64,000 nt of DNA from Tubiluchus corallicola. Taxonomy: Eukaryota > Priapulida > Priapulimorpha > Priapulimorphida > Tubiluchidae. The DNA is taken from positions 1-64,000 of the forward strand of contig JAQGDQ010000401.1 of the NCBI GenBank assembly GCA_030141605.1, given 5' to 3'. Made by a program: the position numbers and the translations under genes. The notes beneath the pieces were generated by a model. That model was not told the DNA's origin. It saw only the letters and a program-made list of their open reading frames with translations, and made no database searches. This document shows positions 22,010-55,075 of the stretch, piece after piece; within the stretch, counting starts at the first letter, position 1; each line of letters begins with the position of its first letter.

Positions 22010-23680
22010 GGTCCTATACTTTTTGAAATTTTACTTTTGATCATGTCTATGTGCGGTTTCCAATCCATGTGTTCGTTAAGAATGATTCCCAAAAATTTCA
22101 TTTCTTGAATGATTTTAATAGGGGAATTATTGATTTTAATATCATCATTATTAATTGGAATTTTCTTGTGTCTTGCTCTAAAAATGATACATTTAGTTTT
22201 TGTAGAATTTAATGACAACTTATTCGTTTTGAACCAAATACTGAAATAGCAATATTTTGTAATTCACGGTTGATATATGTTAAATTATCAGCCTTATTTA
22301 ACTCAAACAATATGCTCGTATCATCTGCAAACTGAAACAGATTTGGGATATCTAAAGTGTTGCGAGCCGAGTGGACCACTGAGCCAAGTAGACCAATTGT
22401 AGACCGCGGTCTACTTGGGCTGCCCAAGTAGGACACTAGAGACAGGTCGCGAATTGAGTCGTTAAGTGTACTGACACCGTCCGTTGTGCTTGTTTTGTAA
22501 TAATAATAATTAAAAACGTTAGTACACGTTGAATAATTTATTATACATCTAATAAAATAAAAGAATTTTATTCTGAGTTGGTAGAACGGACAATATTAAA
22601 TTTGGTTTCGATATTAATGTTGTTGAAGTGAAAAAAACCCACTTTTTTTGCGAATTCAACATTTGTTTAAGGTATATCATTTTTGATTTTGTCTCACTTC
22701 ACAAACAGGTGATCCGTTTCACTACCTCTTGGGCAAATAATTGTTTTCTTATAAGTAAACGTTCTAGCGATCTATGTGTCCTACATGGGCTAGCGAGCCA
22801 TGTAGGACAGTGCCCTACATGTTACAATACTACTGATAATATTAAAACTAATTATCCTTGCTTTTCTTAAATGTTAAAAATTACTTTTTGGTGTTGTGAA
22901 GGCTTAGCAGCATCTGTCTCATTTTTAAATTTGCAATTATTTCTGTAATAACTGTGTGCAGAATTTCGCTCTTTAAAGCATTAGATACTAGGTTTAATGT
23001 TATGATATATTAATGGAGTTAATCATAATGATGAAATTATTGTAAGAAATGCATTTGTAAATTGCCAAGGAATATCAATTTCTAAAAGAAATTTTGTTTT
23101 ATGCTTTATTATGTCATAACAATACTTATAAACAATGGTAATATAAACTGGAAAACAGTTTTGCCAGAGCAAGTTTCTCGACAAAAATCGCTAGTGTCCT
23201 ACTTGGGCTGCCCATGTAGGACACTACTTTTAGCGCATCGGTTTTACCGGAAGTGGTCTACTTGGCTCCTTGGTCCACTCGGCTCCCTACATAAAGAAAT
23301 GTTTTTATGTCATTTATATATATTAAAAATATCAGTGGACCTAAAGTTGAGCCTTGTGGTACTCCACAGGTTATAGCAGCTTCATTTGAAATTATATTAT
23401 TATATCGAATCAGTTGTGTTCTCCCATGAAGATAACTAGATATCCATGGTGTTTGCTCTCCCTCTAAGACTGTAATGATATAGTTAGCTAGAAGTATTTT
23501 ATGATTAACAGTATCAAAGGCCTTAGACAGGTCACAAAATATCCCTACTGCTACTTTATTTTGTTCAATGCATTTAGTTATACTCTCTACAATGATTATC
23601 AAAGCCAATTCGGTTGAGCCGTTTTCCGAGAACCAAACTGCTTATTGTTAATGTTTTGATCATCCAAATAAGATAATATT
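22010..23680 (-). mobile_element. LINE, 3' half: reverse transcriptase (interrupted)
   Basis: On the minus strand the fragments read YLDDQNINNKQFG, FCDLSKAFDTVNHKILL, TCGVPQGSTLGPLIFLIY, FQFADDTSILF and MKFLGIILNEHMDWKPHI. These are, in order, RT motifs of an APE-type non-LTR retrotransposon, including the catalytic A-D-D and the thumb start. A one-base deletion near 23604 shifts the frame just after the FGSRK segment. A 922-bp TIR element (22364-23285) separates YIND from FADD. The C-terminal end after KISKSIG is missing. This half continues the LINE at 31750-33660, from which it is separated by the 8-kb element at 23681-31749. Confidence 0.88.
22364..23285. mobile_element. 922-bp TIR element nested in the LINE RT domain
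   Basis: Left end: GAGCCGAGTGGACCA then GAGCCAAGTAGACCA, separated by two bases (22364-22395). The right end, reverse-complemented, shows the same pair of blocks (23254-23285), with a different dinucleotide between them. The 32-bp TIRs therefore match at 30 positions. Inside are three hairpin-forming stretches using the words GTCCTAC, TTGGGC and GCCC (22400-22431, 22777-22809, 23192-23224). No transposase ORF is seen, so it is non-autonomous. No clear target-site duplication could be read. Confidence 0.85.
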
Positions 23681-23971
23681 AGGGTGGCTGACGCGTGGTG
23701 CCATGTTGTGGGAGACGAAGGTAGAACATTATTTTCTGGCATATTTCGGTTATCAGTTTTCAAACAATATGAAAGTAAATTAAAAATCAAATTAATACAG
23801 TTAAACTACTGTTATCGGTCTTTTATCTGCCGAAATTTAATTTTCCATACTTTCCTAAGTTTTGAGCAGGAAACTTGTGAAATTGTCAAAAACGGCTTTA
23901 CTGCAATCGATCCGTCAGCGTGACATCAAAAATGGCGCCGATTTAAAGACTACAATGGGTATTTTCAAATC

Positions 23972-24240
23972 AATTTGCAGCCCGGACTAACAGCTTTATT
24001 TTCGATATTATCAGCCTTACCTGGGTAAAAAAGATCTGCAAATTACTTTAAAACCCGAGCCACAATTAAATTACAACATTTTGTCCGTCAAAATAGCGTA
24101 TCTTTTACACGCACTGCGGTATTAAGCCTTCAAAGAGTGAAAATCTTATTGGCTCGCATCTAAAAATATTCTTAAATGTCTTATCTTAAATTCTAAAACA
24201 CGTTTTGATTGGATAAAATAAGTTAGTCCGGGCCGCATTT
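23972..24240. mobile_element. 269-bp inverted-repeat element (MITE-like)
   Basis: AATTTGCAGCCCGGACTAAC (23972-23991) is mirrored by GTTAGTCCGGGCCGCATTT (24222-24240), about 230 bp apart, with no coding sequence between. It could be a small MITE inside the 8-kb element or a subterminal hairpin belonging to it. Confidence 0.55.
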
Positions 24241-24778
24241 AGCCATATAAAAGAACTGTTTTGTAAAGAGAAGTCTCTCTGCTGCTTTCCGCTGATTGGC
24301 TCAGGGTGTATGAGTCATGGTACAGCCTGAAAAATCAAAGCGCTTTGCAATTGGTTGCTGCAAGTAAAGAACTTTTAGATGGATGCATCTCCTGAAGCGC
24401 TTACTGGTGAAGCTAGAACAAAGAAGTAGTGACACTATCTACTCCATTCATAATTCTGGTGAGTTGTAAACACTTTAAGCGACGTGATTTAGAACGTGCC
24501 TGGGATTGTGTTAGTGTTTACTGTAGTTACCCTATTTTTCTGTAGTTGTGTTTCCGCTGTTTCCTTATAATTCTCTACCGCTCTTCTTAGTGTAATGTGA
24601 TATCATTTTTTTATTTCAGTGATCAAAGTTGTTACTATTAACTATTAATTTATCTGTGTAATTACAATAATTTATTTTAGTGTCGAGGTTTTTGAAATTA
24701 AAACTATATAAAAGTGGGCTGTGCATGTTACTGATTTTAAGTGATCGTAGACTACGACAGTGTTACTAGATCATACAA

Positions 24779-27700
24779 ATGGACAAGGTAATAGCTTCAT
24801 TTCCTCTCTGGGCTTCCTTTTTTCAAACTGGGGAAATTAAAAGTGGTTCTGAACTGGATAGTGTTTTGCATTCAAAGTCTCTGACCTGGACTAATATTTT
24901 CGAATTATTAAAATTAGTAGATAGCCTAGAAAATGCAAATTTGTTGGATTTCCTGTCTTTTGGCATTTCCAAACCAACAAAAGCCAGGGTACTTGCAAAA
25001 GCACTATGCAGTTTGGGTATTAATGTAGGGTGGGCTTTAGATTTAATCGAAGACACAAGTCCTGCTGCCACACGAACATTGTACACAAAAGTGAAAATTT
25101 TTCGAAAAATGTCAGAAAATGCAAAAGACAAGGTTGTGGCAGCAGTGTTTAGTGCCTTGCCTTGCACAAGTAGTGGCAGTGCTAGTGGAAGTGCATCAGA
25201 TTTTCAGTGCACATCACTACAACCAAGCAAGCCAAAGTTTGAATCTATGTACTGCAATAAAATTGGGTTGTCTGTAGAAGAAATTTTGAGTTGCGCAGGT
25301 GGAAGTAAGTTTGAGAGTTCCTCACAAACTCAATCAAAATTTTCTGTAGATCAGCTTAGTAAGGGAGTTGCTTGGGAAGTGTACACTGCTTGTGCTAAAA
25401 ACACAAAAAAATTCAAAAATGTGTTAGTAGCCCTTTTTGGCTGTGAAGAGAAAGACGTTTCGCTTCCAAAACTCAAAAATAGACTCTACCGTATGCATAT
25501 GCTAATGAAAAAAACAAAAAATCCAAGGCCACATTATGCTGCTTGAAAAAGCCTTTCTTAGGCCAGGATGAACAGATAACAGCCAATATTTCAAATGTTA
25601 GTTCTAGTTCGTCTACTGATGTTACAGTCCACAAGAAGCGAATCGCATTTCTTGAAAAACAGAAAGGGGTTTCAAATGCAGCTTATAATGTAGAAACAGA
25701 GAGCTTAAAAAATTATATGGCTCAGCTTGAAAAGAGGTTAGAAGCCATTTCTTTGCTGAAAAAGAACGCACGGTGTAAGAAATTGACAAATGCGGCAAAT
25801 CTGAAACTGGTTGGTAGCACAAAGAATTTGAAAAAGAAATTGACGAGAAGAAATTCCAAAATTGGAAAACAGAAAAACATCATTGAAGATTTGAAAAAGC
25901 AGTGGGAAGCATGTTTTGCAGAAAATCTCAACCTGAAAGAAAAATTGTCTGAGTTTTGAAAGTAGCAAAAAAGCGATGGAGAATGAAGTGCTTGGTAGAG
26001 AAACTTTATTAAAACGAGCCGAGGAGAAAGAAGCAGAGTTACGGTCTCACATTGATGCATTATTGAAAAGTCGTGGAAAACAATACAAAAAAGTTCTTAC
26101 TACAAGAAAAAGCTTCAGAGAATAAAACAAAAAAATTCAACGACAGTTATTTTGAGATATTACAAAAAATTTTGTTAGATTTAGCTAAGCTTTATGTTTT
26201 AAATGTAGATGAACAAAAACAGTGGGCAGATAGATTTATTTCAAAAATTAAGAATACAATGAGTGATCGGCATATTGTGAATAAAAAGTTGAACAGTCTT
26301 ATACAAGAATATAGGGATGGGGTGCTTCCAAATGTCATCAGGGGATATGAAAGAATGACCACAATTGAAAAAGAGTCTTGTCACAAAATGAACAACTTTT
26401 TTGTATTTTATTGTAGGTCTAGGCACTCAAGCCGATGCTGCCCTGAATGTTTGGGAGAAATGCATTTTTGGTGAAGATCTGGTCGGGTGTGCTAAAGTAG
26501 GCTGTTTTCCTAAAGCAAATGAAAGTGGAACAACTAGGCTAGTAAGCTCAGTTTGCAAAGCTGTTGGACCCAGGGCATGTGAAAAGTCAGAAGAACAAGA
26601 ACAGTTTGCAACATTTTTAGGGGTTGAGTCGGACATTAGTAAATTTCCTTTGGCATCTTTCAGGGGCAACAGGGTAAATATTTTTTTTCATTTACTTCCT
26701 ATATCCTAGCTTGATAAATTTTTTTGCTGAACACTCTAACGAAAATAAGTTAATGAATGCAGTAGAAGCAGATCTTGGTGTGTCAGTTTATAAATCAGGT
26801 TGCCGAGTATTAGGAATAATTGACAAGGTAGTAACTTCGCCATTGTGGCGCATGCTAAATTCTGTTGAGCACATTTATAATATGAATGATGTTTACCAGC
26901 AATTGCAGAATGAGTTACGGGAGTGAGCAGTTGATTCCAGTGAGCTTTTAAATGGTGATGCTAGGTTGTTTGGAAAAATGGGACAGTGGGACGGTATATC
27001 AGAAAAGCTGTTCCAAGTCAATGAATTGACATGCAAACAAAGCAGGCCTTAGAAGTGATATGTGCAGGATTTTTGGTTGTTGTAAAATGCATGGTAACAG
27101 ATCATTTGCCTGGATGATGCCATACAGAGTATAGTGAACAGGATGAGTTAGCTACTGCCTCTGTTCCTAGTACTAATGTTAGTGCTGAAAGGGATTTTGG
27201 AATGTTGGATCGGATAATGAGAGAAAAACCGAATGCCACCACTATCACGATTGAAGGATTAATAATGTATAAGCAGAATAAGACAGCAGATTGGTTAGAT
27301 AGTAAATCAGAAGATGAGCGTAAGAATTTATTAGAGTGGGCTGCTAAGTCAGTGAAGCATCAGAGAGAAGAATTTGTAGCCTGACGAAGAGAAGTGCAAA
27401 TGAGGAAGCAACTGAAACGAATGCAACACAGGGAAAGTAAACTAGTGAAAGAACGAGTAGAACAAGCAAAGAAAGAAAAATTAAGTAGGGAATTATTCAG
27501 CATAGGAGGACTATGGGATAGTGAAGAAGCTGTTCAAATAAATTTGTCAAGGTACAGTTCTTCAAATACCAAGCTATGTGCATTGAGAACACAAATTTGA
27601 TACAGAAAAGTAGTTTTAGGACAAGATAGTGTTAGAAAACTGTTTAAATTTGTCTTCAGGTCAGCAAAAATTTAGTGCAGAGAAACTAGCCACCAACTTA

Positions 27701-28337
27701 AAAAAAGCAATCAGGCAATCTCGGCAGTTATTAGATAGCATCTATGGTAGCAATGAAATAAGTGCTTATTCTATAGCAGCAAAATCTGAAATAGAACAAA
27801 TCAATAGTCAATTTTTAACAGACAGCAATCTGGAAGAGGGGAAGAGCACACAAAACAGATGCAGAATAGCAGGTGACGGTAGTCTTCGCAATGACATAGA
27901 TCCTCGAAGATTGCTAGGTAGAAGAGTGAAGCACCTCTGTTATGAAAATGATAAGGAAGAATGGTACGAAGGTGTTATAGTCAAGGTAGGAAACAGATAT
28001 GGGGTAAGATATGATGGTTACAAGGAAATTTTGTCTGTGGGGAATGGCTGACTTAAGAGAAGACATAGAAAAGGGTGAGCTAGTTGAAATAGAGCTAGAA
28101 GCAGCCCATTTAGTGGGAAAAAGCATACAGAATTTATAGATTGATGAGGATAGTGGTGAAGAGATTTGGTACAGAGGTAGAATAGTAGAAAGGGATGGGA
28201 ATGTATTCAGTGTTGTTTTTCAAGGAGATGAGGACAAGGAAGATGAGGAGGTAGACAAAGATTACTACACCAAAGAATACTGTGAAAAATTACCTGTTTT
28301 GGAAAACTATAATAAATTTGAACTCAGAATTCTGTAA
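24779..28337 (+). pseudogene. Broken gene of the 8-kb element: coiled-coil protein with two Tudor-like modules
   Basis: Conceptual segments follow one another in changing frames. 24779-25546 is an intact 255-codon ORF from ATG. 25547-25959 and 25955-26125 are Lys/Glu-rich coiled coil. 26073-26400 and 26401-26709 contain ESGTTRL and FRGNRVNIFF. 26711-26926 contains VLGIIDKVVTSPLWRML. About 27030-27105 reads QALEVICAGFLVVVKCMVTD. 27169-27600 contains SAERDFGMLDRIMREKPNA and NKTADWL, with an in-frame TGA at 27382. 27629-28051 and 28050-28337 follow. I recall this order (GNRFN..., AGFLVV...DHLPG, ERDFG..LDR..REKP, NKT..WL) from uncharacterised multi-copy proteins of cnidarians, echinoderms and other invertebrates; I cannot name a Pfam family. 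At least seven breaks make this copy inactive. The ERDF...LDR region is vaguely like hAT dimerisation domains. DNA between segments could partly be introns, but stops and shifts in short spans argue for decay. Confidence 0.72.
27890..28310 (+). pseudogene. Tandem Tudor-like modules at the end of the broken gene
   Basis: The first module reads LLGRRVKHLCYENDKEEWYE, followed by a YGVRYDGY strand. The second, after a frameshift and a stop, reads LVGKSIQNL, then EIWYRGRIVE and FSVVFQGDED. The spacing G+.I/V.H - W(Y)xG - Y/FxVxYxG is that of Tudor/Spindlin-like barrels that bind methylated histone tails or other ligands in eukaryotes. Placement at the C-terminus of a transposon-type protein suggests a chromatin-targeting role; this is inference. 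Confidence 0.5.
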
Positions 28338-31300
28338 AAAAACAACTGCAGATTAATAATTTTGAATTAAATTTTGAAACAAAAATACAAATTCTCATCA
28401 TCATTCTCCAAGGCAATTCAAAAAATTTAACAGCTTTCTATTAAATTGCTAAAACCAATGAAAAAAAAAATTGAAAGTAAATATCACTATTTATGTTCAT
28501 TTTTTATAACTTTTCCGAAATACAAATGACATCATCGGGCTTGTTGTCAGCACTGTCAATTTAAAATAAGCTTCATCAATCTGCTCATCTCTCATACTGT
28601 TAGTTATGTAATAGTTTTAAAATGTGTGACCTGAATTATACAAATGACAAAGGCTCTTGCATTTTAGGAACACTTTTAAATACTTAGTGAAAGCAAGCAG
28701 TGTTGAAATGGTTCTCTTACTCTGAAGTTTGATGTACTCCCTTGTGTTTCAGGCAACCAAAGCAGTGTACATCTTCTATCATGTGCAAACTGAACTGAAC
28801 AAATGACGAGGCTCTTGCTTTTCAGATGCACATTGAATAAAAATGATGTGTAATTGGAACTATACTCAAGGTACTTGTGCTCTTCTAAGCCCATCCCAAA
28901 CATTTTCCCTTCCAGATGTGTGCTTGAACTGTACAAATGACCTAAGGCTCTTGCTTTTTAGGTACACATTGAGCAAAAGTGTGTTATTACCTTTAATTAG
29001 TTGTTTAAGCGCACACGAACATTGTGTTTAAATGTGTATACTCAAGTGCGTAATCTAGAATTTTTACTAGCCCTTCACTCTAATAGTTCAGTGATTCAAA
29101 ATGAGAGTTTGTATTATATCATTCGTCCTGGGTTGTGTGATCGAGTGGTTTAGATTTTAGATTGCAAGCATGCAGTCTTGAGTTCAATACTAGCGGCTGC
29201 CAATGCCGGGGCATATAACCTACACGACGTATGCAATTTGTCTGTTAAATGAGTTCAATAAATCTTTTCTTTGTCTTTTTGTCTTTGTCCCTGGCATTTA
29301 ATAGTCACTAACATTGAGTTTTTCAGCATCTTGCATACACAACTGAAACTACGGTCTGTGGAGTGTTGTATATATAGCCATAGCCATGTATTTACATAAG
29401 AGGCTAAAGTATAGGCAGATATTTTGTGTCATAAAAGTATTATGGTGGCAATGTCACTTCTTAACTCAAAAGCAAAAAATATGCCATTTGACTTTATTAA
29501 TTAGATAAAAATCTTGCACAGAATTTTTTGTAAAGATCTTAACACTTATTACTACAAATAGCAAATGACATCAAAGTATCTGCCAAAGTTTGTCATAATT
29601 TCATAAATGGCTCTTGTTTTAGTTTTGTTCAATAATAATTCTATTGATGTAAAAAATTGTTACATTTTTAGGTTTAAATTGGCTAAGAAATCACTGAAAA
29701 ATACAAAAAAGTGAACTTTGTTGTCAAATTTTAATGCAAAATTAACAAAAGGTTGATACGTTGAATTTTTGAGATACAGACAGCATTTGTCCAAGCCATC
29801 TTTAGTGAATTGAAAAAAGAATAATTTTATACTGTTGTTAAAGTTTTTTCTGAACCCCTAAATCCTAAATCTTAGCATTTGAATTTAGGGTCTGTTCGTT
29901 TTTTGCATTGTAAAAATAAATTAGAAGGGGGAATGTGCAAATATATTAAATGTTGTTATTTGGCATTCTGTATGTTGCCTACTTATAAATAAAACCTGAA
30001 GGGCCATTTAAAAATCAATTTTCACTTTATGTCATAAATTGTGTATTACCATAATATATATTCCTCTTCAGTCACATTAGTATTTATATTAATTCGAAAC
30101 TTGTCTTTTCTAGGTTTCTACAACTGTTGTGCTTGCTGTACATCTTACTTATGATCCTAGTCAATCAACAAAAGGCATCCACTATATTTTCTAAAAGAAG
30201 AAAATATTATCAAGAATATGAATTTGCTGTACATAAGATCAATTTTAAATTACATAGGCCTTTTAACATTTTCCTTGGTGCTTATAATATGTAATTTGAG
30301 GCAAAATTAGCAGATTCGTCATAGAAGCATCTTTAGAGTTTTTGTAAAAAGTAAATTTATTATTGTCTTTTTCTGTAATAGTTGCGTTACAGTATAAATA
30401 TCTCTGATATTATGTAACTAAGTTTGTCATTTATAATAAATTTATTTTGCATTGTTACTGAACTAAGTTTTTCCTATTTTTTTAATTTTGTGTATTTTGT
30501 GCTTGCATACCTTGCAATAACATACAAAATAGAAATATATACCTGTAAAAGCTGATTCACAGTTGAACAAAATTCCAGAAGTCAGGACTAAATGGATAAT
30601 CAAAATCTGCTTGGACAATAAACAACATGTGTCTTTAATTATGTAGGGAGCAACGATTAATTACATGCACCTGGAAATCGAAACTGCAGACTTATGGTGC
30701 ATCCTGCTTGTTCATCTTGTATCATTTCTTCGGGCATTAACTACCTAACGTAGAAAAGGTAATTTAGAAAAATCTAGGAATCTGAGAAAAGATAACAATT
30801 AGCAAGTCAAATTATAAAATAAAACATTTATCGATTAGATGTGTCAGGTAAAGGTAATTAAGGTTTTCTAGTAATAAGGGTGACACATCTAGTGCTGTAA
30901 ATGCTTTCTATTTGATAACAAGTCTTGACTACCAAAGTGCATTATCATAAATTATACGTTGGTTAACATTTAGATTATACTATACAATAATACATGTAAC
31001 AAAAATATCAATTAGGCATGCCTGGAAAAGGATAACAATATATTAAAACAGGTGTAATCAAGGCAGTGCACATACTATGACAAAAGATTAAAGATACAAA
31101 GTATTATTTTGAAAAAAACTTTAATAAAAGTTCACTCAGATCGGTTCTACAAAGAGTTAATTAACACGTTGCCATGACAACAGGATGTCTTCATCCCAGA
31201 TTTTTTACCTGCGCAAGATGAAAACATGGACTTGGCAATAAACACACAAAAATCTCTTCAATGACTGTGCAACCAACTAAATTCCACTTTCTCAAACGAA

Positions 31301-31749
31301 TACTTTTCATATTGCAAATTCTGTAATGTTAATGAAAATGCTGTTTTCCCAGTTTTTCCCGTAAAAATTTTTCCTAGCATAAATCTGAAGGTGCGTAGTG
31401 TTTATGAATATCTGTTCTATGTACACTGAGCTACCAAAAGTCATATTAACAATTAACTACCAGCTGAATTGGCACCTTTTATAACACTCTAAAGTTGACA
31501 AGTTAGCGAACTTTCGTAAAAGGTCCATTTTCACACCTGTTAAGATAAAAAATCATTTGGATCAATTTAGTCATTTTTTGTTGCTCCTAAAATGCGAGCG
31601 TTTTTCTTAACTTTAACTGCCCGCGATTTCAAAACAAACTAATTGTTTTAAATCTGGTTTTTTTAATTAACTATATGCTCAAAGCACTATCAAATGACCA
31701 CGCTTGCGGCTATGATGGCGCGCTCTACAATTTTTGTTCAGCCACCATA
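28338..31749. other. Right flank of the 8-kb element, non-coding
   Basis: AT-rich and without recognisable coding sequence. It holds three diverged repeats with the core AAATGAC..GGCTCTTGC at about 28632, 28792 and 28926 (roughly 135-160 bp apart), and a SINE at about 29131. Nothing else is recognised up to the TIR at 31738. Confidence 0.5.
29131..29285 (+). mobile_element. tRNA-derived SINE
   Basis: GTGTGATCGAGTGGTTTAGA resembles the A box of a tRNA head, and GAGTTCAATACTAGCG carries a B-box-like core. The body GCCGGGGCATATAACCTACA follows, and a TTCTTTGTCTTTTTGTCTTTGTC tail closes the unit (last 23 bases described by their repeat TTTGTC). A shorter match to the body occurs near 46397, supporting a dispersed family. 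Confidence 0.5.
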
Positions 31750-33660
31750 ATAATATTTTATTGTAAACAAACTGTAAGGTAACAGCACGATAGGTCTATA
31801 ATTATTAATGTCGAGAGAATCCTTGGATTTGAAGATAGGAATGATAATTGACCCTTTTAATTTAGAAGGAACAGTGCCAGTTTTAAGTGAATTATTAATT
31901 GTGTGTCAAAGGGGTAATGATAGTTTCAATTACATCTATAATATCTTTGGGGCGCAAATTATCCCTACCATTATTTCGATCAAATGACTTGCATATACTT
32001 ATAATATCAGATTCCGTGACTGGTGTAAAGAAAACTGCAGAAGGATAATTGCCTTTTAAATAAGTTTCATAGTTGATATTAACATTTTCTATATTATCAG
32101 CTACTTTTTGTCCAATCTGCAAAAAATGGTCATTAAAATGATTTACTATAGATTTAGGATCTGTGATTAATTTATTATTAATTTTTAAACGAATTAAGGA
32201 CTGTTCGCACATGGAATACATAATTTCTTTCATAATTCCCCATGTTTTCTTTAAATTGGCTTTAACACCGTTTAGCTTATTTTGATAATAAGTCGATTTA
32301 GCATTTTTAATAATATTATTTAATTTATTGCGATATTGCTTATACTCGGTCCCAGCTGAGTCTGAGGTTTGTTTGATTAATGAATCACACATTTTAATTT
32401 TGCACTTGATACTGGTTAATATGGTTGGAGTTATCCAAGAATTTTTTATGACATTAGTTTTCTTGGAAGCTTCAGTAGTTTTTATATTTTTAAAGTAAGC
32501 TTCGTTAAATTTATCCAGAAATAGATTGTAAGCTGCTTCAGGATCTGAAGTACTACAATTCCTCCCAGTTAATTGATTCTATATCACTTCTTAATTTATT
32601 TTTTACATGGTTATTGTATATTACTTTGTCGATATTATTAGTTTGAAATTTTGCTATGTTTAAATCAATAATTAAGAAAATTGGTAAGTGATCGGTGACA
32701 TCTACTAAGAGACTCCCAGCTCTATACTGATGCTGTATAACGTTTGTTAGAATATTTTCAATTAATGTAGAGCTATATGCTGTAATTCGAGTAGGATAAG
32801 TAATAACTGGAAAAACATAATTAGTAATAACAGTATCAAGAAACTCAGCCATGTCTTGAAAAACATAATTAGTAATAACAGTATCAAGAAACTCAGCCAT
32901 GTCTTGGTGCGAAGAGTGATTTAATAAATTCAAATTGTAGTCCCCTAACAAAAATAACTGGTTATTTTGTTGATTTATTATTGATAGTTTAGTACTTAAC
33001 TGTTCAATAAATGTTTGTGGGTTTTGCCTGGGTGGTCTGTAGATCACGCTGACTACTATGTTTTTGCCTTTAACTTTATAAATTTCAATAAAAATACTTT
33101 CAAGGTCAGAACTGCTTGATGTTAAGTCGTTTCTTAATACAAAGGGTATGTCTGATTTAATGCCCTACGCCAACCCCCTTTTTATTCTTCCTATTTCTAT
33201 TCACCAGAGTATATCCAGGTAAATTAAACATTCTTTCTGTGTCTTCATTTAACCATGTTTCAGTTAGCACAATTAGTGAGAATTGAATTTGTAACATTTG
33301 CAGCACTGCAGTTAAGTGGCCATAATTAGCAGATAAACTTCTTATATTCAATGGATCATTGATAATTTGTTGTTGATATTTATGTTTTAAAGCACAGACA
33401 AAAATTGCTCATTGTCGTAGTATTTATTTTTTGGAAAAGAATCTTTTTGATTGAAAAAGTGTATATCAGGATCAATATCCTCTAATGGCAAATTTGCGTT
33501 CACACTATTTAGTGTTTTGAAAAGATCTAAATTATACTGATTGTTAAAATTATAGAATCATGTAGAATTAAAGCAGACCAACAGGCATAATATGCACCAT
33601 ATTCCCAGAACAGTATAGGTTTTTAGGCGTTGTAATTCCAGATTAAGATTATTCATTACT
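31750..33660 (-). mobile_element. LINE, 5' half: APE endonuclease and start of RT
   Basis: On the minus strand the reading starts at an ATG at 33656. It passes LNIRSLSANYGHL and LIVLTETWLNEDT (33351-33157, APE endonuclease N-terminus), VIYRPPRQNPQTF and LLGDYNLNLL (catalytic GDxN), TDHLPIFL, then a linker with KTWGIMKEIM, and finally SKLKGSIIIPIFKS and INNYRPI of the first RT motifs. It breaks off at 31757 where the 8-kb element begins. One stop near 33560, a shift near 33160 and another near 32550 show it is inactive. A 48-bp tandem duplication lies in the endonuclease region. APE plus RT without visible RNase H fits the CR1/L2/Jockey-like groups. Confidence 0.88.
32811..32906 (-). repeat. 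48-bp perfect tandem duplication in the LINE endonuclease
   Basis: Two adjacent identical 48-bp units (32811-32858, 32859-32906) encode the same 16 residues (QDMAEFLDTVITNYVF) twice. The reading frame is kept. Confidence 0.97.
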
Positions 33661-39700: not shown

Positions 39701-42700
39701 TTTGCCACCCATTTCTGCCCCTTAATTGCTGTGTCGATACCAACAAATGTTGTTAATAAAGTGCTTTAATGAATGCACTATAATTTATACAAATGGAGTA
39801 GCTACTCAGCAAAAGAAGTTGCCAACGGTCAACGCCGAAGCAGCGTGGCTTACAGCAAAGTTCAGTATGGAATATCTGTGCGCAACGTTGCCGCTTCTTG
39901 ACATTCTTATTGACTTCCCGCATTGAGGCACAGGAGTAAAACAACAGGCAGTTAATGTTCTAATGTAATATTTTTCACTATAATATAATAAAAAACCACG
40001 ATCGTTCATTAGTTGGTCAATGATCAATCATAGAAATGAGACCGATTCCCAACACTAGAAAGTAGCCTATGTAAATTTTCTAACTGTTTAGCTCCTCTAG
40101 CCTGTTGCATGATAAACATGATAACCATATTAATGATAACTGGAACTACGCTAGCCAAAATAACTTTCCATATTTAACATGTTCAAACTTAGTGTAATCA
40201 ACACAACAAGCATTACTGTTACAAGATAACGTTGCATGACTGCTAGTTAGGAAAATAGGGACTTACTGGTACTGGCACCATATCAGTGTTTTTGCATGGT
40301 ACAGTATACACTGTCCACATAGCTCCAACAGCAGAGTGCTCCTTCAAGCGATGTCAAACACTTACAGAGTCTACAGGTTATTCCTTCTTTGTATTCCATG
40401 GGAAAATCCGATCTGATGGTGCAAGCTCATAGCTTGTGTCTCTGTACGGAAAGATCAAGGAATGTTGGTCATCTGGGGGAAAATGACAGTCACACTGTGA
40501 CTGAAGCAAAACATTTCTTTATTCGTTTCACAAACTTTAATAGATTATTTTAACAAAGCTTAAGCGTGTGTCATAGACAGGGATCAACTTTGCACCTGTT
40601 CTGTCTATCACAGGTGACCAACAGTAGTTGCCTACTTTGAACAGTTATGAATGTCGCCTGGTAGGCAGCTAGCACCATCTAGTAGTGAAAATACAAATAT
40701 GTTACAGCAGACTGTCACAAAGAACCCGTGTAGGAATGGTTGTCACAGTACTCCATTCTTTAGTGGACCCGATGGAAAGTGAAAATGCATCTTAGGTGCT
40801 TGAGATTGTATGTGTATGCCCAATGATCAGTGGGTAAAGTTTTAGTCGTGTCTGCATGCGAGTAGGACAGTAAACACACTTTTATCTTCACTTTGTCTAT
40901 ATTATGTATATTTGATTACCTGTTTGTTATATTTGTTTTCTTAATAGGTCCGAACAGTTTTACGGGAGAAGATTGCTGCGAATTCCATGTGCACGGTGGC
41001 ACCGCTGTTGTACGAGCAGTCATGGAAGCCATTGCTTCTCTATCTGATACCAAATATGCCGAAGCTGGAGAATTTACTAAAAGGTTGGGAGTTAATCTTA
41101 AATGCTATGAGCATTGCATAAACTCACCCATTGTTTTGACATTGGACAACTAAAACTACTCAAGTTAGCCAACTCTCGCAGTTTTTTGGCAAATCTTTTA
41201 GGCTGCTTAACTTTAATGTTATTGATATTGCTTGTTTAATTAGTAACTTTTGAATAGGAACAGGTTGCTACCTAAGTCATCAATCATTGTCCATTGTTGT
41301 GGAGCTTTGTTTGCATTTGATTTGGCTTTTGTTTGCTTTCATAATGGATTGCATTCGAGAGTTGGGCGGAAAGTTTCGGCTTTCAGACATAGTGAAATCT
41401 CAGTTTCATTATATTATAAAAATTAGTTAATGCAAATTTACATTGCACAGCATTCTAAAAATGCTAACAATTTTGTTGTGTAGTGATGAAATAAATTGTA
41501 ACAAGCATTTCTGATTGTACATGCAACATGCATAATGGGTAGTTTAGATGAATAATGATGACGGTGAGTAATCTTTAGTGCAAAGTTAAGTACTATTGGA
41601 TCTGGTTAATACCTGGATCTGTGACATGGTCAAACATCTATTTGCATGTTGATTTCAGGGCATTTATCAATGGAAAACTGGATTTGACTGAAGTGGAAGG
41701 ACTGGCGGATCTTATTCATGCGGAAACAGAAGCGCAGCGCAGGCAGGCACTGCGACAGTTAGATGGTGCTCTCAGCAACTTGTATTCGTCTTGGAGAAAA
41801 AAATTATTAAAGGTGATAAATTTATTAAGACTATACAAAGTATACTTTTCATTAAACCTATGGGATACAAAAAGGGGCCTCAATAGTATTTCCTTCTTTG
41901 AAATAACTATTGCCAATTTCTGGTTCACATGTCACTCTTTGGAGTTGACTCAGTTATGTTTTAATTCAATGTCAGTGAACAAACATTTCAAGCCAAGAAC
42001 TGCCACAGTTACACTGAACATTTATATTGGCTGCAAAATTACACAAAAGCAACAGCTAACTCACTATATCACTAACGATCCTATTAACACTGAAACAAGA
42101 ACTGTGGTTTTCTGTTAGGCCATTCAGGTTTTAGGTTGTCCGACTTGTAAGAATCGGGGAAAAATTTGCTGCTTGCTTTTGGTGGTATATGTTTTTGAGA
42201 GGAAACCTGACGTCTCTTGTCTTTTTTTGTAGGCTTTAGCGCATGTTGAAGCTTATATTGATTTCAGTGAAGAGGACAATATTGAGAGTGGTGTTCTCGA
42301 TAATGGTGTGTACCTAAGCAAATCATCTCTGTTTAATTAAAGGAAAGTAATGTAATTTCATTACGTACATAATTTCTTGTAACTTTTAGTTATTACTTGT
42401 TTACTTAATCATCATATAATTTATATAAGCATATTTTGTTTGTCAAACATATGAAATTAAATTGTGTTTTAGTTGCTACAGACTAAAACACTTACTCTGA
42501 ATGCTTATAGCAAACACTTTTCTTGTGTTTTTTTCATGACTTTTTAGAATTTCTTACAGATTAGATATATTGACATTCATTATAGCTAGCGTTGCTGTTC
42601 GTAACTTGCTGATGGAAGTAGAAAGCCACTTGCAGGACAGTCGACAAGGTGAGCGATTACGGAGTGGAGTTCATGTTGCGATTGTTGGACGACCCAATGT

Positions 42701-45120
42701 AGGAAAGAGTAGCCTAATGAATTATATTTGTAAGTATGTGATATAAATTGTTGTATTAGCATATCAGTTATGATAATATCTATTATTCATACAGTCGCTT
42801 AACTCAGCTTTATTGATTTGTAATGTACAATCTTTACAAGAAAACACTCCTTTCATATTAGAGAATGACTATGCTAGAAAAAGTGTGTGTTCTTCTTATA
42901 AATAGGAATAAAAATGAGTGAGTAGCAAATATTGTTCAATATTAAATGCAGACGTGTCTGTTATGTTTTAGACATGGTAGGCTTGAATCTGGCCAGGCAG
43001 GGCTTACTTAATTTTGATGGCTGTGGCAGAATAGGAGCCTCATTATCAAGGCTGATCTCTTAAGGTGAGGCACTGAATCAGCAGTGGTGTCTTAGCACAT
43101 TCACATGCGTATATAATTTCTCACCTTGAGGTAAACAGCTGGACTCGTATGATAGATGAAACTGTCTAAAAGAAGTTTTTGTATCCGTCACTTCCTGATT
43201 TGTTACTACCTCAATTAATGCCAGAATTGTCATTGTCTCAGTTAGGCTATTCATTATACTGTCATCCTTGATACCAAATGCTCTTCTTGCTTTTCTAAAA
43301 GTGTTTGCATGTCAGTCCATAAAATTAACGACGTCGATAAAATTAACTTACAGAAATGATTGTGTTCCAAATCATACATTTCCCTCCCTAGTTGGAAATC
43401 TACTGGCTCAGTAAACTCTTGTAATAACATTTTGTATTTCAACTGCATATTCATTTTGTCATTTTTACTACAGTTGATTTTAAATTATCTACATTATATA
43501 ATCATAGGTCAGCGTCCAGCCGCGATTGTTTCACCCATAGCCGGCACAACAAGAGACGTGGTGGAGTCTGCATACAACATTGATGGATACCCTGTGGTTA
43601 TCTGTGACACTGCAGGCGTGCGCAATTCCCGTAATGTCGTGGAGCAGGAAGGTGTGGCCAGAGCTAAGAGAAGGTAAGTTTGGGCTTGCAGTGTCAAAAG
43701 TCGATTTCATAAGTGATTCATTTATGTTAAGAATTAATTCAGGTGTGTCAGATTTTGATATCCTTTTGTTTTTGCTGTATCTGCTATGTTTGTCATGTCT
43801 ATAGTTGTACATTCATATTTTTAGCATTGCAAAGCTTTTTGTGTTTCTAATTTAATGTTCGAAACTTGCGGGAGTTAAATTTAGCACATATTTCTAATCC
43901 TAGAAACTCAATTTTCCTACTATTGACTGTTTGTATGCATATTAATGCTTTTTAGAGCTGAGTCGGCTGACCTGGTACTGGTTGTTATCGACGTTACAGA
44001 ACTTGAGGCATCTGCGAATCCAACAGAATACATCTTAACTCTCTTCACTGAACTTGGCCTGCGGAGTGTGGCAGACTTCGCAGAAGCGCAGACAAGCAAA
44101 CCGGGATGGCAGAGTATACATCGTCGTCCACCTGTTGCAGAAGTACACAATCAGGATACTTCCAAATTGTCAGACGACGAATTGTTGCGGGACTGCCATT
44201 TCCTTCTAGAACCTTCCCCAGAGTCTCTTCCTAGGCATGTCGTGTGTGATGTCAATTCTTCTTCCAGTGCTAATAAAAACGAAAATCTCAAGAAGCATAG
44301 AGACAGTGCGGACAACGAACGAATACCAGTTATTTTAGTGCTAAATAAGTGTGACCTTGTGCTTGATGAAGGTGCATTAAGATGGCAGGGCTTTTTGTCG
44401 GACGTGTGCCACACTTGTGTTGTGTCTTGCCTTACTGATGATGGTCTTTCAGCTTTTATGGATGTCTTTAAAGAGGAAGTGAAAATTCTGTAAGTCTGTA
44501 CCAGAAATTTCGTATTGTATGCATTCTTTTCAATTATATTGATGTTCAAGTAAGTGTTGCTGAGCATAAATGCCAGTGTTTCATTAAACATGCATATAAT
44601 CAAGAGTAAATACATTTAAGATTGTAATTGAAAAGTATTTTCTAAATAGCATGTTCTTCCTCTTATCACTACATTATAATGATTATATTTAGTTTGTTCT
44701 TAGTTTTTGTTATTTACTGACTTACAATATTTGAAATTGATCGAGTTTTTGCTAGCAACGGAAAATATTCTGAATTATTTTGCACAAGACCTTTTACCAG
44801 TGATATTCTGCTCCACCCATGTGTTAAGCTGGCAAATCAAACTCGCAAAAATTCAAGTGGATAAGTAACACATGAATATGTTTTTATTAAGGTGTGGTAA
44901 CCCACTCGTTGGGACTCCCTCGTTTACCCAGTCTCGTCATCGCCACCATCTTATGAGATGTGCTTACCATCTTCAACGGTTTTTGCGAGGACACGGAGAT
45001 CTGGTGCTCAGTGCCCAAGAACTTCGTCAAGCATCTAGACAACTTGGTAAAATAACAGGTAGGGTAACATCCGAGGAGATACTGGATGTCATCTTTAGAG
45101 ACTTCTGTGTGGGAAAGTGA
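36708..45120 (+). CDS. GTPBP3: GTPBP3 (MnmE/TrmE family), mitochondrial tRNA-modifying GTPase, nine exons
   Basis: Exons: 36708-36847, 39297-39442, 40948-41083, 41659-41812, 42233-42305, 42586-42729, 43508-43673, 43956-44489, 44892-45120; all GT-AG with matching phase, 573 residues. With its partner MTO1 this enzyme makes the 5-taurinomethyl (or related) modification of wobble uridine in mitochondrial tRNAs. Residues 1-30 are Arg/Ser-rich with one acidic residue, a good mitochondrial presequence. [17 protein letters not shown] and [15 protein letters not shown] are the N-terminal folate-binding domain. The helical domain contains [15 protein letters not shown] and [14 protein letters not shown]1 is GRPNVGKS (251-258), G2 GTTRD (277-281), G3 DTAG (298-301), G4 NKCD (450-453). 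The C-terminus is [15 protein letters not shown], with the catalytic Cys of the C-[ILV]-G-K motif. An insertion of about 80 residues lies between G3 and G4. The start is the first ATG after an in-frame stop at 36642. Confidence 0.96.
37889..37935. repeat. Single pogo-like terminal sequence in GTPBP3 intron 1
   Basis: TACAGTAGAATCTGTTTTAT resembles the TA + CAGT... start of Tc1/pogo-class TIRs. No matching opposite end was identified nearby, so this may be an end fragment or chance. Confidence 0.3.
38574..39219. mobile_element. Pogo/Tigger-like TIR element in GTPBP3 intron 1
   Basis: The left end TA|CAGTAAATCCTCGCTTAA and the right end, reverse-complemented, TA|CAGCATACTCCATTTAAT share an imperfect TIR and both abut a TA dinucleotide, the target of Tc1/pogo elements. 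The interior (about 646 bp) has no transposase reading. The TIRs are diverged, so the right boundary is less certain. Confidence 0.5.
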
Positions 45121-49515: not shown

Positions 49516-49992
49516 TTAATTACACCAAGTAATAAATTTTACTTTCCAATCTTCAAAAATAGTTGTTTGAAATTGACAAGATGTGCACATTTTAAAGATG
49601 TTTTTTTGATAATTGTTTATCATTGCTAGGTTCACTTCAACCTCCAAAAGATGATTTTCTTTTATAGCTCTCGTGCCCTTTCGACGTGAATATTGTATTT
49701 GCTCTAGTGTAAACTGCCCACTGGCCTTGTTCTTGAAAGGTGAAAAGAAAAGTTTTACACCAGTTAGCAGGTCGTCAGAAATGGTGAAGCCACGGTCAAC
49801 CATCACACTGTTTCTAGCATCGAAAGCATTAAGCAATGTGTCACTTTCTTGAATGATCTTCTTGTCATTGGCATGGCCGCCTCACACTTCTGACACATAC
49901 CTGATTGTTCCACTGGGACTCATGCCCACCAGCAACCCCACTGTTGAGTGGTGCTTAGAATGTGCATAGAATGAATTAATGAACTTTACCAT
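49516..49992 (-). pseudogene. DDE_Tnp_4 (PIF/Harbinger-type) transposase remnant
   Basis: On the minus strand, NSFYAHSKHHSTVGLLVGMS, SGTIRYVSEV, a stop, GGHANDKKIIQESDTLLNAF, ARNSVMVDRGFTISDDL, GVKLFFSPF and FTLEQIQYSRR appear in order. DDE_Tnp_4 nuclease domains have this arrangement: Y..YK.H.T.K.L...TP.G.I.F.S..W.G..SD, then D.VMADRGF with the second catalytic Asp, then V.L..PPF. An in-frame TGA stands where the conserved Trp would be (about 49881). No N-terminal part or TIRs were located. Confidence 0.75.
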
Positions 49993-51834: not shown

Positions 51835-52010
51835 ATTTCAACAAGCCCACATCACAAATAATATTACTCCTAAATTTGTTTGAAACTGTTTCTAGCTGAG
51901 CATAATGTATGAAGCCTTCTCCATTAACCTGATTTATTTTAACACAGATATGTTTGTTCATTTTATTTACACAGTCAGAGATTGACTTATTCTTCTTGTT
52001 CGGCATTTTC
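51835..52010. repeat. Diverged outlying copy of the 765-bp repeat
   Basis: Shares AATAATATTACTCCTAAATT and the TTTATTTTAACACAGATA block with the tandem copies at 53.0-55.1 kb, but the intervening part is missing. Its minus strand begins with an ATG and reads NKKNKSISDCVNKMNKHICV, similar to the open minus-strand phrase in each tandem copy. Confidence 0.65.
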
Positions 52011-53034
52011 TTCCTTTAATTAGGTAGCAATGTCAATTTTCTAAACACATAAAAATGATCACTTATGTAAACAAACTATTGTTTCAATATTATAGATGCA
52101 ACATGTTATCACTTTTTATGCAATAGTGGCACATGATGACTCATTACACCAGTTAACTCTCTATTCTAGTTTTTTTAAGAAAATGACGTCATTTTTGGTA
52201 TTTGGCGATTATAAGTACTGAAATATTTTACATCCACAGACGTCATTGAATCGGAGTTGAGTGACATTTAGGGTTCAGTGTAGCCTCCACTCGTGTAAGA
52301 ATCTACTATTAAATTTTGAACCTTGATGTAGTCGCCTTCACACATATTTTGTATTAAGCAGATTTGACTGTTCCAATATTTAACTATCATGTTTGACAGC
52401 ATTAAGTCTCTGTGTTTCCATAAAGTTCTTTTTGATGGGATCTGTTCTGATTTCTAAATCAAAAACCAAAAAATATTTGAAAAAACTATTATGGAAAATA
52501 TAAAGTTAACAAATTAATTAATACGAGTTACGTAAACTCCATAATAAAGAGTACATTGTTTACTGAACAATATGTAGCGGTTGTGTTAATGTGTAACACC
52601 TACTATTTTTACAAAGCCTTCTACACAAATTCTGGCTGCTATCGGCAAAAACTTTACTCCTGCAATTGACTTCATTTTAGGATGTTGAAACTTTTTGTAT
52701 AATACTTTCGTCATCACACGTCAAAAAATAAAAACAGAAAAGTTCAGTACCCTTCGTTATAGTCTTAAAAAGATTTTAATGTCATGACGCAAGAATTTCA
52801 GTTCTAAGTACTTTCTGGACTGCCAAACAGTAATCAAGTTTTTACTTACGTATTCAAGATATCACAAGGAAGAACGCACATCAACAAGAACTGTAACATG
52901 TTTATCTGGTCAGATATTACCAACAAGGTTGTTTATTTAAAACATCGCTAATGCAACGAAAAAATATGTAAACTAACCATTGAACTCTACATAATTTTGA
53001 TTATTTCACAACGTGGTATAATGATGTTTTATGT
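52011..53034. other. Intergenic between repeat copies
   Basis: AT-rich, no coding motif, no clear match to the tandem unit on either side. Confidence 0.4.
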
Positions 53035-55075
53035 AGTTTTCATTAAAACTGTTTCCTGTTCTGCATGATGTATGACGCCTTTCTTGAGCTAAACACATAA
53101 AAACTTAAAATGCCCTCCTCTGCATACAATTGTTATCATGCACATTTTGCAACTCATTAACTGAACTAAATTAATCATCTAACACAAAAAAATGAAATTT
53201 TGAAAAATTCCACACAGGCCTATAATAACAGTAATCTTCACGGTTGTGTATCAGGTTTCAAATGCCAAAAAGGTGTCAGGCACTCAATTCACCGTAGTTA
53301 TTTTAACACTGATATGTTTGTTCATTTTATGTGTGCTGTCCAGGATTGACTTATTCTTATTGAATATGATCACCATCAACTGGAGAACCATCTTGAAATA
53401 TCCATGATACAAATCTTTTTCTTTTCTATTTTGAGTGTAAAAGTGTGAATCTTGGTTGTTTGCACTGCTGAACAAGTAACAGAGCCACAGTGCAAACAGA
53501 CCATCTGATTCCAGTTCATTTGATTGATCTGTAAGTTGCTAGTGATCTATAGATGTCTATACACTTTTTAGTAAGCTTTCAGATTGAGCAGCATAGTTCC
53601 AGCATAGTTCTACACCTCCTCTGGTCTTTGCTGCCATACACATTCGGTAGGCTGTGTCAAATCGTGAAATCTTCGTCCTTTGTAATTACGCATACTCGGA
53701 CACTCATCTTGCCATAAAATAAACAACATTTTAAAATTTTACAATCCGAAAACTTAGACACCACATTGTTCAAGCCCACACCCTGAATAATATTACTCCT
53801 AAATTTGCTCAAAACTACTTCTAGTTTACATTATTGTATGGTACTTTCTTGAGCTAAACACACAAAAACTTAAAATGGTCTTCTCAGCATACGATTCTTA
53901 TCATGCACATTCTGCTACTCATTAGCTGAACTAAATTAATTGTCTAACACAAAAAATGGAATTTTGCAAAAGAAAGGAAAAGCCTGCAAATGCCTCTGTG
54001 TACAATAACAGCAATCTTCACAGTTGCGCATCTGATCACAAACGCCAAGTGGCTCATTCCATTCCCAATATTTATTTTAACACAAATACTTTTGTTCACT
54101 TTATTTACTAAGTCCAAGATTAATTTATTCTTATCGAATATGATCACCATCAACCCGAGAACCTTGAAAACATACATGATACAAATCTTTCCTTTTCAGT
54201 TTGGAGTGTGAATTTTGGCTGTTTACACTGCTGGACAACTAACTGAGCCACAGTGCAATCAGACCATCTGATTCCTATTCATTTGATTGATCTGTAAGCT
54301 GCTAGTGATCTATAGATGTCTACACACTTTTGTAGTAAGCTTTTAGATTGAGCAGCATAATTCCAAATAGTTCTAGCATTGTTCTACACCTCTTCTGGTC
54401 TTTACTGCCATGCATAGTCGGTAGGCTGTGTCAAATCCTTAAATCTTCGTCCTTTGTAATTACGCATACTCAGACACTCATCTTGCCATAAAATAAACAA
54501 CATTTTAAAATTTTACAATACGAAACTTAGACACCACATTGTTCAAGCCCACACCATGAATAATATTACTCCTAAATTTGTTCAAAACTGTTTCTAGTTC
54601 AGCATAATGTATGGTACTTTCTTGAGCTAAACACCCAAAAACTTAAAATGGTCTTCTCATCATACGATTGTTATCATGCACATTCTGCATCTCATTAGCT
54701 GAATAAATTAATTGTCTAACACAAAAGGCTGAAATTTGCTAAAGAAAGAAAAAGCCTGCAAATGCTTCTGCATACTATAACAGCAAACTTCACGGTTGCG
54801 CATCAGATCACAAACGCCAAGCGGTACATTCCCTTCCCAATATTTATTTTAACACAGATACTTTTGTTCACTTTATTTACTAAGTCCAAGATTAACTTAT
54901 TCTTATCGAATATGATCGCCATCAACTGGAGACCCTTCTTGAAAATGTATATGATACAAATCTTTTCCTTTTCAGTTCAGAGTGTGAATCTTGGTTGTTT
55001 GCACTGCTGGACAACTAACTGACCATCTGATTCCTATTCATTTGATCGATCTATAAGCTGCTAGTGGTTGCAAAT
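53035..55075. repeat. Tandem array, three copies of about 765 bp
   Basis: Anchor words recur at constant spacing. GAGCTAAACAC-type sites are at 53086, 53851 and 54623 (steps 765 and 772). CCATCTGATTCC is at 53501, 54264 and 55023 (steps 763 and 759). The copies are similar but carry many substitutions and small indels. The minus strand of each copy contains a related phrase around NKVNKSICVKI, suggesting the unit came from something once coding, perhaps a transposon. Confidence 0.85.

Follow-up and report, generated by a model that had tools for sequence, protein, structure and literature searches.

What kind of gene lies broken at positions 24779-28337 (forward strand) of a genomic stretch from the priapulid Tubiluchus corallicola, and does it belong to a mobile element? 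The stretch, here called the window, is the whole 64,000 nt sequence that was analysed (contig JAQGDQ010000401.1, positions 1 to 64,000; C2343:1-64000 in our numbering of contigs). The gene is located inside a genuine DNA transposon (class II) of the terminal inverted repeat (TIR) type, which interrupts a long interspersed nuclear element (LINE). This type is indicated by inverted ends common to dispersed copies, a fixed 7-bp target-site duplication (7/9 loci) and an empty target site (14/15 LINE copies). The recurring ends TAGGGTGGCTGA..TCAGCCACCCTA, the duplication, the empty site, shorter copies including a miniature inverted-repeat transposable element (MITE) of 382 bp, and a long decayed frame inside the element were all observed directly. 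Very probably, the window contains an autonomous transposon of this type that is now dead and has lost part of its sequence, with the gene as a remnant of its transposase. The coordinates of all features are collected in Table 1.

Table 1 Features of the transposon, its gene remnant and the interrupted LINE (positions in the window).
Feature	Position	Strand	Evidence
Whole transposon copy, 8070 bp	23680..31749	+	ends and duplication; empty LINE site; both ends recur in genome
Left TIR, TAGGGTGGCTGA	23680..23691	+	18/21 other left-end matches include the terminus
Right TIR, reads TATGGTGGCTGA on the - strand	31738..31749	-	24 other right-end matches; commonest form elsewhere TAGGGTGGCTGA
Target-site duplication, left copy, ATAATAT	23673..23679	+	
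Target-site duplication, right copy, ATAATAT	31750..31756	+	
Interrupted LINE (reverse transcriptase), left part	22209..23672	-	RVT_1 at 23258-23641, E 2.8e-13; carries a further insert
Interrupted LINE, right part	31757..33164	-	RVT_1 colinear over joined flanks
Broken transposase-like gene (pseudogene)	24779..28337	+	5 stops in 1185 codons vs 109 and 120 in shifted frames
Lysine/glutamate-rich region, probably coiled coil	25516..26098	+	translation; coiled coil by eye, not computed
Site of ~960 bp absent relative to both C1432 copies	26137..26156	+	comparison with C1432 copies
Core, first part: KNTMSDR (candidate second Asp), damaged MNNFF..C block, ESGTTRL, FRGNRVN	26157..26691	+	translation; comparison with C1432
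Core, second part: AGFLVVVK..VTDHLPG, ERDFGMLDR..REKPNA, NKTADWL	27034..27381	+	hAT-dimerisation-like order; no profile match
Two Agenet/Tudor-like C-terminal modules	27893..28334	+	sub-threshold Pfam Agenet match

The element and its empty sites

Both flanks of the element are one minus-strand LINE, the reverse-transcriptase frame of which was split by the insertion. When the flanks are joined, the RVT_1 match is colinear and reaches 68.2 bits (profile 5-137), compared with 59.9 bits (profile 34-137) for the left part alone; the joined flanks are also colinear with R2 reverse transcriptases, LINE-1 matches being weaker. In the assembly (343.5 Mb, 2344 contigs), 14 of the 15 other LINE copies have the empty junction without an insert, while the fifteenth, L029, stops short of it; the locus row of the window itself (L016) was excluded from this count. 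The LINE of the window is without ~20 bases slightly right of the junction that are present in other LINE copies.

The element begins with TAGGGTGGCTGA and finishes with TCAGCCACCATA. The window contains two exact matches to TAKGGTGGCTGA, one at 23680-23691 (+) and one at 31738-31749 (-), which bound the 8070 bp; with up to two mismatches there are 4 matches where 5.81 are expected, so that the motif alone is not in excess. Of 15 AT-rich shuffles, 8 contained at least one 12-bp inverted pair next to a 7-bp duplication, as did 4 of 300 if at least six G/C were required in the 12 bp, a limit chosen after the first shuffle outcome. Pairs of any composition enclosing the gene appeared in 8/300 shuffles. 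Within the window alone, the ends and duplication are therefore only suggestive, and the decisive evidence comes from outside it, namely from the empty LINE sites and the other copies of both ends.

Further copies of the two ends were located across the assembly; all counts of this search are lower bounds. The right end with its flank matched at least 40 places (the window, 15 LINE copies and 24 further right-end matches), the left end at least 22 (the window and 21 others, the terminus being included as given in Table 1). Among 16 short right-end stretches, 12 terminate exactly in TCAGCCACCCTA, three do so with one mismatch and one is cut by a contig end; the sequences beyond these ends differ, with a few in common. 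TAGGGTGGCTGA was found at most of the ends read. Two copies extend from end to end, with lengths of 4155 bp (including five Ns near the right end) and 4091 bp. Neither carries the gene; what they share with the window copy is ~0.6-0.7 kb of the left side and, split into blocks, ~1.3 kb of the right side. The first unit in C1915 measures 3121 bp, and the 382-bp MITE with the same ends lies in C2147. Thus, the initial annotation, which had placed the gene within a unit with TIRs, is borne out by the empty LINE sites and the recurrence of both ends.

The same annotation had left the duplication at 7-8 bp. We scored its length over nine loci at which both flanks are readable, and seven of them have identical 7-bp flanks: ATAATAT in the window, CTAGTAG in C1915, CTAGTAC in C1743, CTAGTAT in C663, CTACTAC in C1472, CTACAAA in C2195 and CTATTAG in C2147. 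When flanks were paired across different loci, 6/390 pairs were identical, because the target preference is shared. A duplication of 8 bp was rejected, as it fits 4/9 loci if the first base of the element is counted in, 0/9 with one more base per side, and 4/9 if the last right-end base is counted in; of the two lengths, only 7 bp stands. Counted over 31 sites, the target reads C 21, T 27, A 25, no preference at position 4, T 25, A 28 and G 11, which is close to the palindrome CTANTAG with a weak last place (G 11/31); three non-independent pairs are among these sites (C1223/C1652, C1534a/C2041 and the two C1915 left ends).

Several further insertions and rearrangements were seen in these sequences. 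The stretch C1915:2663079-2670546 (L013-L014) is a foldback-like composite with two outward-facing left ends, an inner right end and three CTAGTAG at its boundaries. Inside the transposon of the window, 29105-29290 resembles by eye a tRNA-derived short interspersed nuclear element, with no ARAGORN or Rfam match, and its part 29139-29224 recurs in L029 at 79%. In the LINE, 22364-23285 is an insert with 35-bp inverted repeats (91% identical) as ends, which may be a MITE from another family of transposons, and 32810-32906 is a perfect 48-bp tandem duplication within the LINE frame.

The gene remnant and its link to the ends

The gene consists of nine consecutive frame pieces on the plus strand, which in translation together hold every block listed by the initial annotation (ESGTTRL, GNRVN, AGFLVVVK..VTDHLPG, ERDFGMLDR..REKPNA, NKTADWL and SIGGLW, all in plus-strand frames of 24779-28337). 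As that annotation suggested, these blocks may be those of multi-copy uncharacterised proteins of invertebrates. A read-through along the pieces meets 5 in-frame stops in 1185 codons, compared with 109 and 120 in 1176 codons when each piece was read one or two bases out of frame, a contrast somewhat biased in favour of the first figure since the pieces had been picked for being open. Despite this bias, the plain reading of the frame length and the blocks is that 24779-28337 is a real but decayed coding region and not a live gene. Read from stop to stop, the gene copies have longest frames of 258 aa (window) and 211 aa (C1432), which does not reproduce the open frames, 330 and 634 aa long, that the genome search lists next to its matches. 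A possible intron at a GT..AG stretch near 26674-26709, judged by eye, was dropped since it would be shorter than 40 nt.

In the protein, an N-terminal part is followed by a long charged part (probably a coiled coil) and the core, and two Agenet/Tudor-like modules lie in the C-terminal part. The ~960 bp that the C1432 copies have in addition hold a candidate first catalytic Asp, in the form CRDGTSKEGKHYG in one of them, and the damaged MNNFF..C block of the window copy reads CGMH in C1432. Combined over the copies, the order is D (CRDGTSKEGKHYG, C1432), D (KNTMSDR, window), CxxH (CGMH, C1432) and ERDF, which resembles the order in hAT transposases; the aspartates are candidate catalytic residues by their position. 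The core matches no protein family in Pfam. At the C-terminus, the Pfam Agenet match (E 4.9e-4, 21 bits) is below the curated cut-off of 27, and the similarity between the two modules is weak (31% over 45 aa, E 0.26). The PDB sequence search gave nothing relevant, just two acetyltransferase entries at E 0.11-0.45, and no match for the Tudor-like end. A search of NCBIfam with two core pieces only returned a single sub-threshold match (CBO0543, E 0.0063). No homologue was confirmed in scans of viral and prokaryote sequences, the latter giving one pattern match in Blastococcus, about the number roughly expected by chance.

At the DNA level, C1915 and C1399 contain only the N-terminal half of the gene, and C1432 contains two tandem gene copies. 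A protein search with a query from the gene copies matched 16 stretches, which lie without exception in C1432 and the contig of the window. In C1915, the N-terminal half is colinear with the left end as in the window, with ~0.6 kb more between the two. An internal deletion (window 26080 to about 29909) is furthermore common to C1915 and C1399, a pattern that the mobilisation of a shortened derivative in trans would be expected to leave. Both gene copies of C1432 have a related left end, TAGGGGTGGCTGA. The stretch that contains them, C1432:82109-102017 (L010-L012), is a tandem segmental duplication, the copies of which are ~12 kb apart and carry the two broken genes; aligned blocks are 95-99% alike.

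The gene is most likely the transposase of the element. The earlier suggestion that it is the product of a DNA transposon is very probably correct, judging by the structure of the element and the left-end linkage in the window and C1915. A number of observations weigh against this interpretation. All three core-bearing copies found are broken, and since none of them is intact, the transposase function is something we infer. The candidate first catalytic Asp is replaced by Ala in one of the C1432 copies. A Pfam search of the pieces and of the read-through protein gave no hAT, P, Kyakuja-Dileera-Zisupton (KDZ), rve or other transposase match at E up to 10, a range in which HMMER filters conceal most matches above 0.1. 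The AlphaFold model of 27031-27381 (117 residues, C-terminal core) had a mean predicted local distance difference test score of 42.6, too poor for a fold comparison. An exact search for TCAGCCACC in the C1432 stretch fetched gave no right end. No matching duplication is present at two of the nine loci, C1223 (CTACTAG/TTATTAG) and C1652 (CTACTAG/CTAGTAC), where recombination or duplication is likely because the left flank is common to both. A tenth locus, C1534a, was excluded from the nine, with five Ns at its right end and ACTTTTAG (eight letters) on both sides, so that the length is not fixable. The copies outside the window all come from one genome, and all gene copies found are decayed.

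As the transposase of this element, the protein would be an RNase H-fold (DDD/E) cut-and-paste enzyme binding its own 12-bp ends. It would have excised the element and joined it to a CTANTAG-like target with a 7-bp stagger, and might have mobilised shortened copies in trans. Through its two Tudor/Agenet-like modules at the C-terminus, it was probably anchored to chromatin or methylated proteins.

Kinship of the element and competing explanations

We come close to an even judgement, leaning slightly to the negative, on whether the element is a true but divergent member of the hAT superfamily with a 7-bp duplication, along the lines of hAT5, hAT6 and fungal hAT7. TAGGG- or CAGGG-type termini are typical of hAT, and the TAGGG-type ends and the ERDF..LDR block resemble hAT ends and the hAT dimerisation motif. 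The TIRs are likewise short, the order D, D, CxxH suits hAT, and the ERDF and CxxH-like blocks presumably stand in a hAT-like order. This is opposed by the profile searches, which within the limits stated above matched neither the hAT C-terminal dimerisation domain or any other hAT model of Pfam nor a BED finger. The duplication is also 7 bp and not 8 bp; according to passages of one survey, 8 bp is the usual length in hAT elements, but lineages with duplications of 5, 6 and 7 bp are described as hAT5, hAT6 and fungal hAT7 (PMC12730594), and for this reason 7 bp does not exclude hAT. The element differs further from fungal hAT7 in its animal host, and from the hAT superfamily in its Tudor/Agenet-like C-terminus. 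In a part of the Repbase Update paper, 'hAT with 7-bp TSD' (target-site duplication) serves as a search example (PMC4455052), and a Repbase entry for the element may therefore exist; our literature search found no paper on this element by title. The distant hAT relationship at which the initial annotation had hinted keeps its TAGGG ends and ERDF block, but has lost the 8-bp duplication and is without a hAT profile match. The nearest mechanistic relatives are probably hAT transposases, and we leave the element unclassified among DNA transposons, kinship with hAT being possible, without assigning it to that superfamily.

More tentatively, the element may represent a DNA transposon lineage of its own at superfamily level, new and equally distant from hAT, P, KDZ and IS3EU. 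Such a lineage would account for the lack of a profile match to any of these and for the C-terminal Tudor/Agenet-like modules, and none of the four fully matches the combination of TAGGG ends with a 7-bp CTANTAG-like target. The ERDF and CxxH blocks are nevertheless hAT-like in look, and the profile searches are weakened by the copies all being decayed. We regard it as rather unlikely that an animal superfamily-level lineage unlike the described ones is defined by TAGGGTGGCTGA ends, a 7-bp CTANTAG-like duplication and a transposase of >1000 residues ending in two Tudor/Agenet-like modules. The duplication length suits KDZ, for which passages of PMC12730594 give 7 or 8 bp, whereas the element has no KDZ profile match, and Kyakuja has CA..TG ends and no TIRs.

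It is improbable that the gene is a passenger or a captured host gene and that the true transposase is encoded elsewhere. Gene DNA does occur at few end-bearing places, besides the window only in C1915 (half) and C1432 (left end alone), and both the shorter copies read (C1534a, C1743 and the first C1915 unit; 3.1-4.2 kb) and the MITE are without it. On the other hand, no other frame of at least 110 aa was found inside the element beyond the gene span, and the gene is linked to the left end in both the window and C1915.

Membership in the P superfamily, as a distant relative of Galileo or 1360, appears very improbable: the 7-bp CTANTAG-like duplication is palindromic as in that superfamily (7 or 8 bp) and the C1915 composite is foldback-like, but P elements begin with CA and the ends here with TAGGG, the inverted repeats are just ~12 bp, and no P transposase or THAP profile matched the pieces or the read-through protein. 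The strikingly similar target of Galileo, with mostly 7-bp and sometimes 8-bp duplications of the consensus GTANTAC, is described in a section of PMC4168063; the TANTA core and a foldback-like derivative are shared, whereas the TAGGG ends, the short repeats and the missing THAP and P-transposase matches set the element apart from it.

IS3EU, suggested by the TA..TA ends, was ruled out by the 7-bp duplication together with the lack of an integrase-type (rve) match. In passages of PMC10045372 and PMC12730594, IS3EU is described as having TA..TA ends and duplications that mostly measure 6 bp, and its enzyme is likened to IS3 and integrases. The termini of IS3EU/GingerRoot are similar to those of the element (TAYGG..CCRTA in the rust-fungus forms), but its inverted repeats of ~12 bp contrast with >30 bp in the rust-fungus families, and its duplication of 7 bp with the usual 6 bp (PMC10045372, PMC12730594).

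If intact homologues behave in the same way, a family with a core unmatched in Pfam would be recognised as a transposase for which the ends, the target and the length of the duplication are known, and gene annotations in invertebrate genomes would be corrected. If the superfamily-level reading is true, a group of uncharacterised multi-copy invertebrate proteins would be explained as transposases. The element furthermore makes it possible to test whether a DNA transposon reaches chromatin via Tudor/Agenet-like modules, and it adds a lineage with a duplication departing from the 8 bp usual for hAT.

Other features of the window

Another transposase remnant is located on the minus strand at 49516-49881 (DDE_Tnp_4, E 4.8e-6). 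On the plus strand, 41579-42118 and 43927-44493 are probable exons of a host MnmE-like tRNA-modification GTPase, the former matching MnmE_helical (E 6.9e-13) and the latter giving only weak GTPase matches. The interruption of this gene, the LINEs and the blocks of the transposon gene all suggest an animal host. Kilobase units that are 85% identical are arranged in tandem at 51842-55066, and the window starts with 26 perfect copies of CAAGG (1-130).

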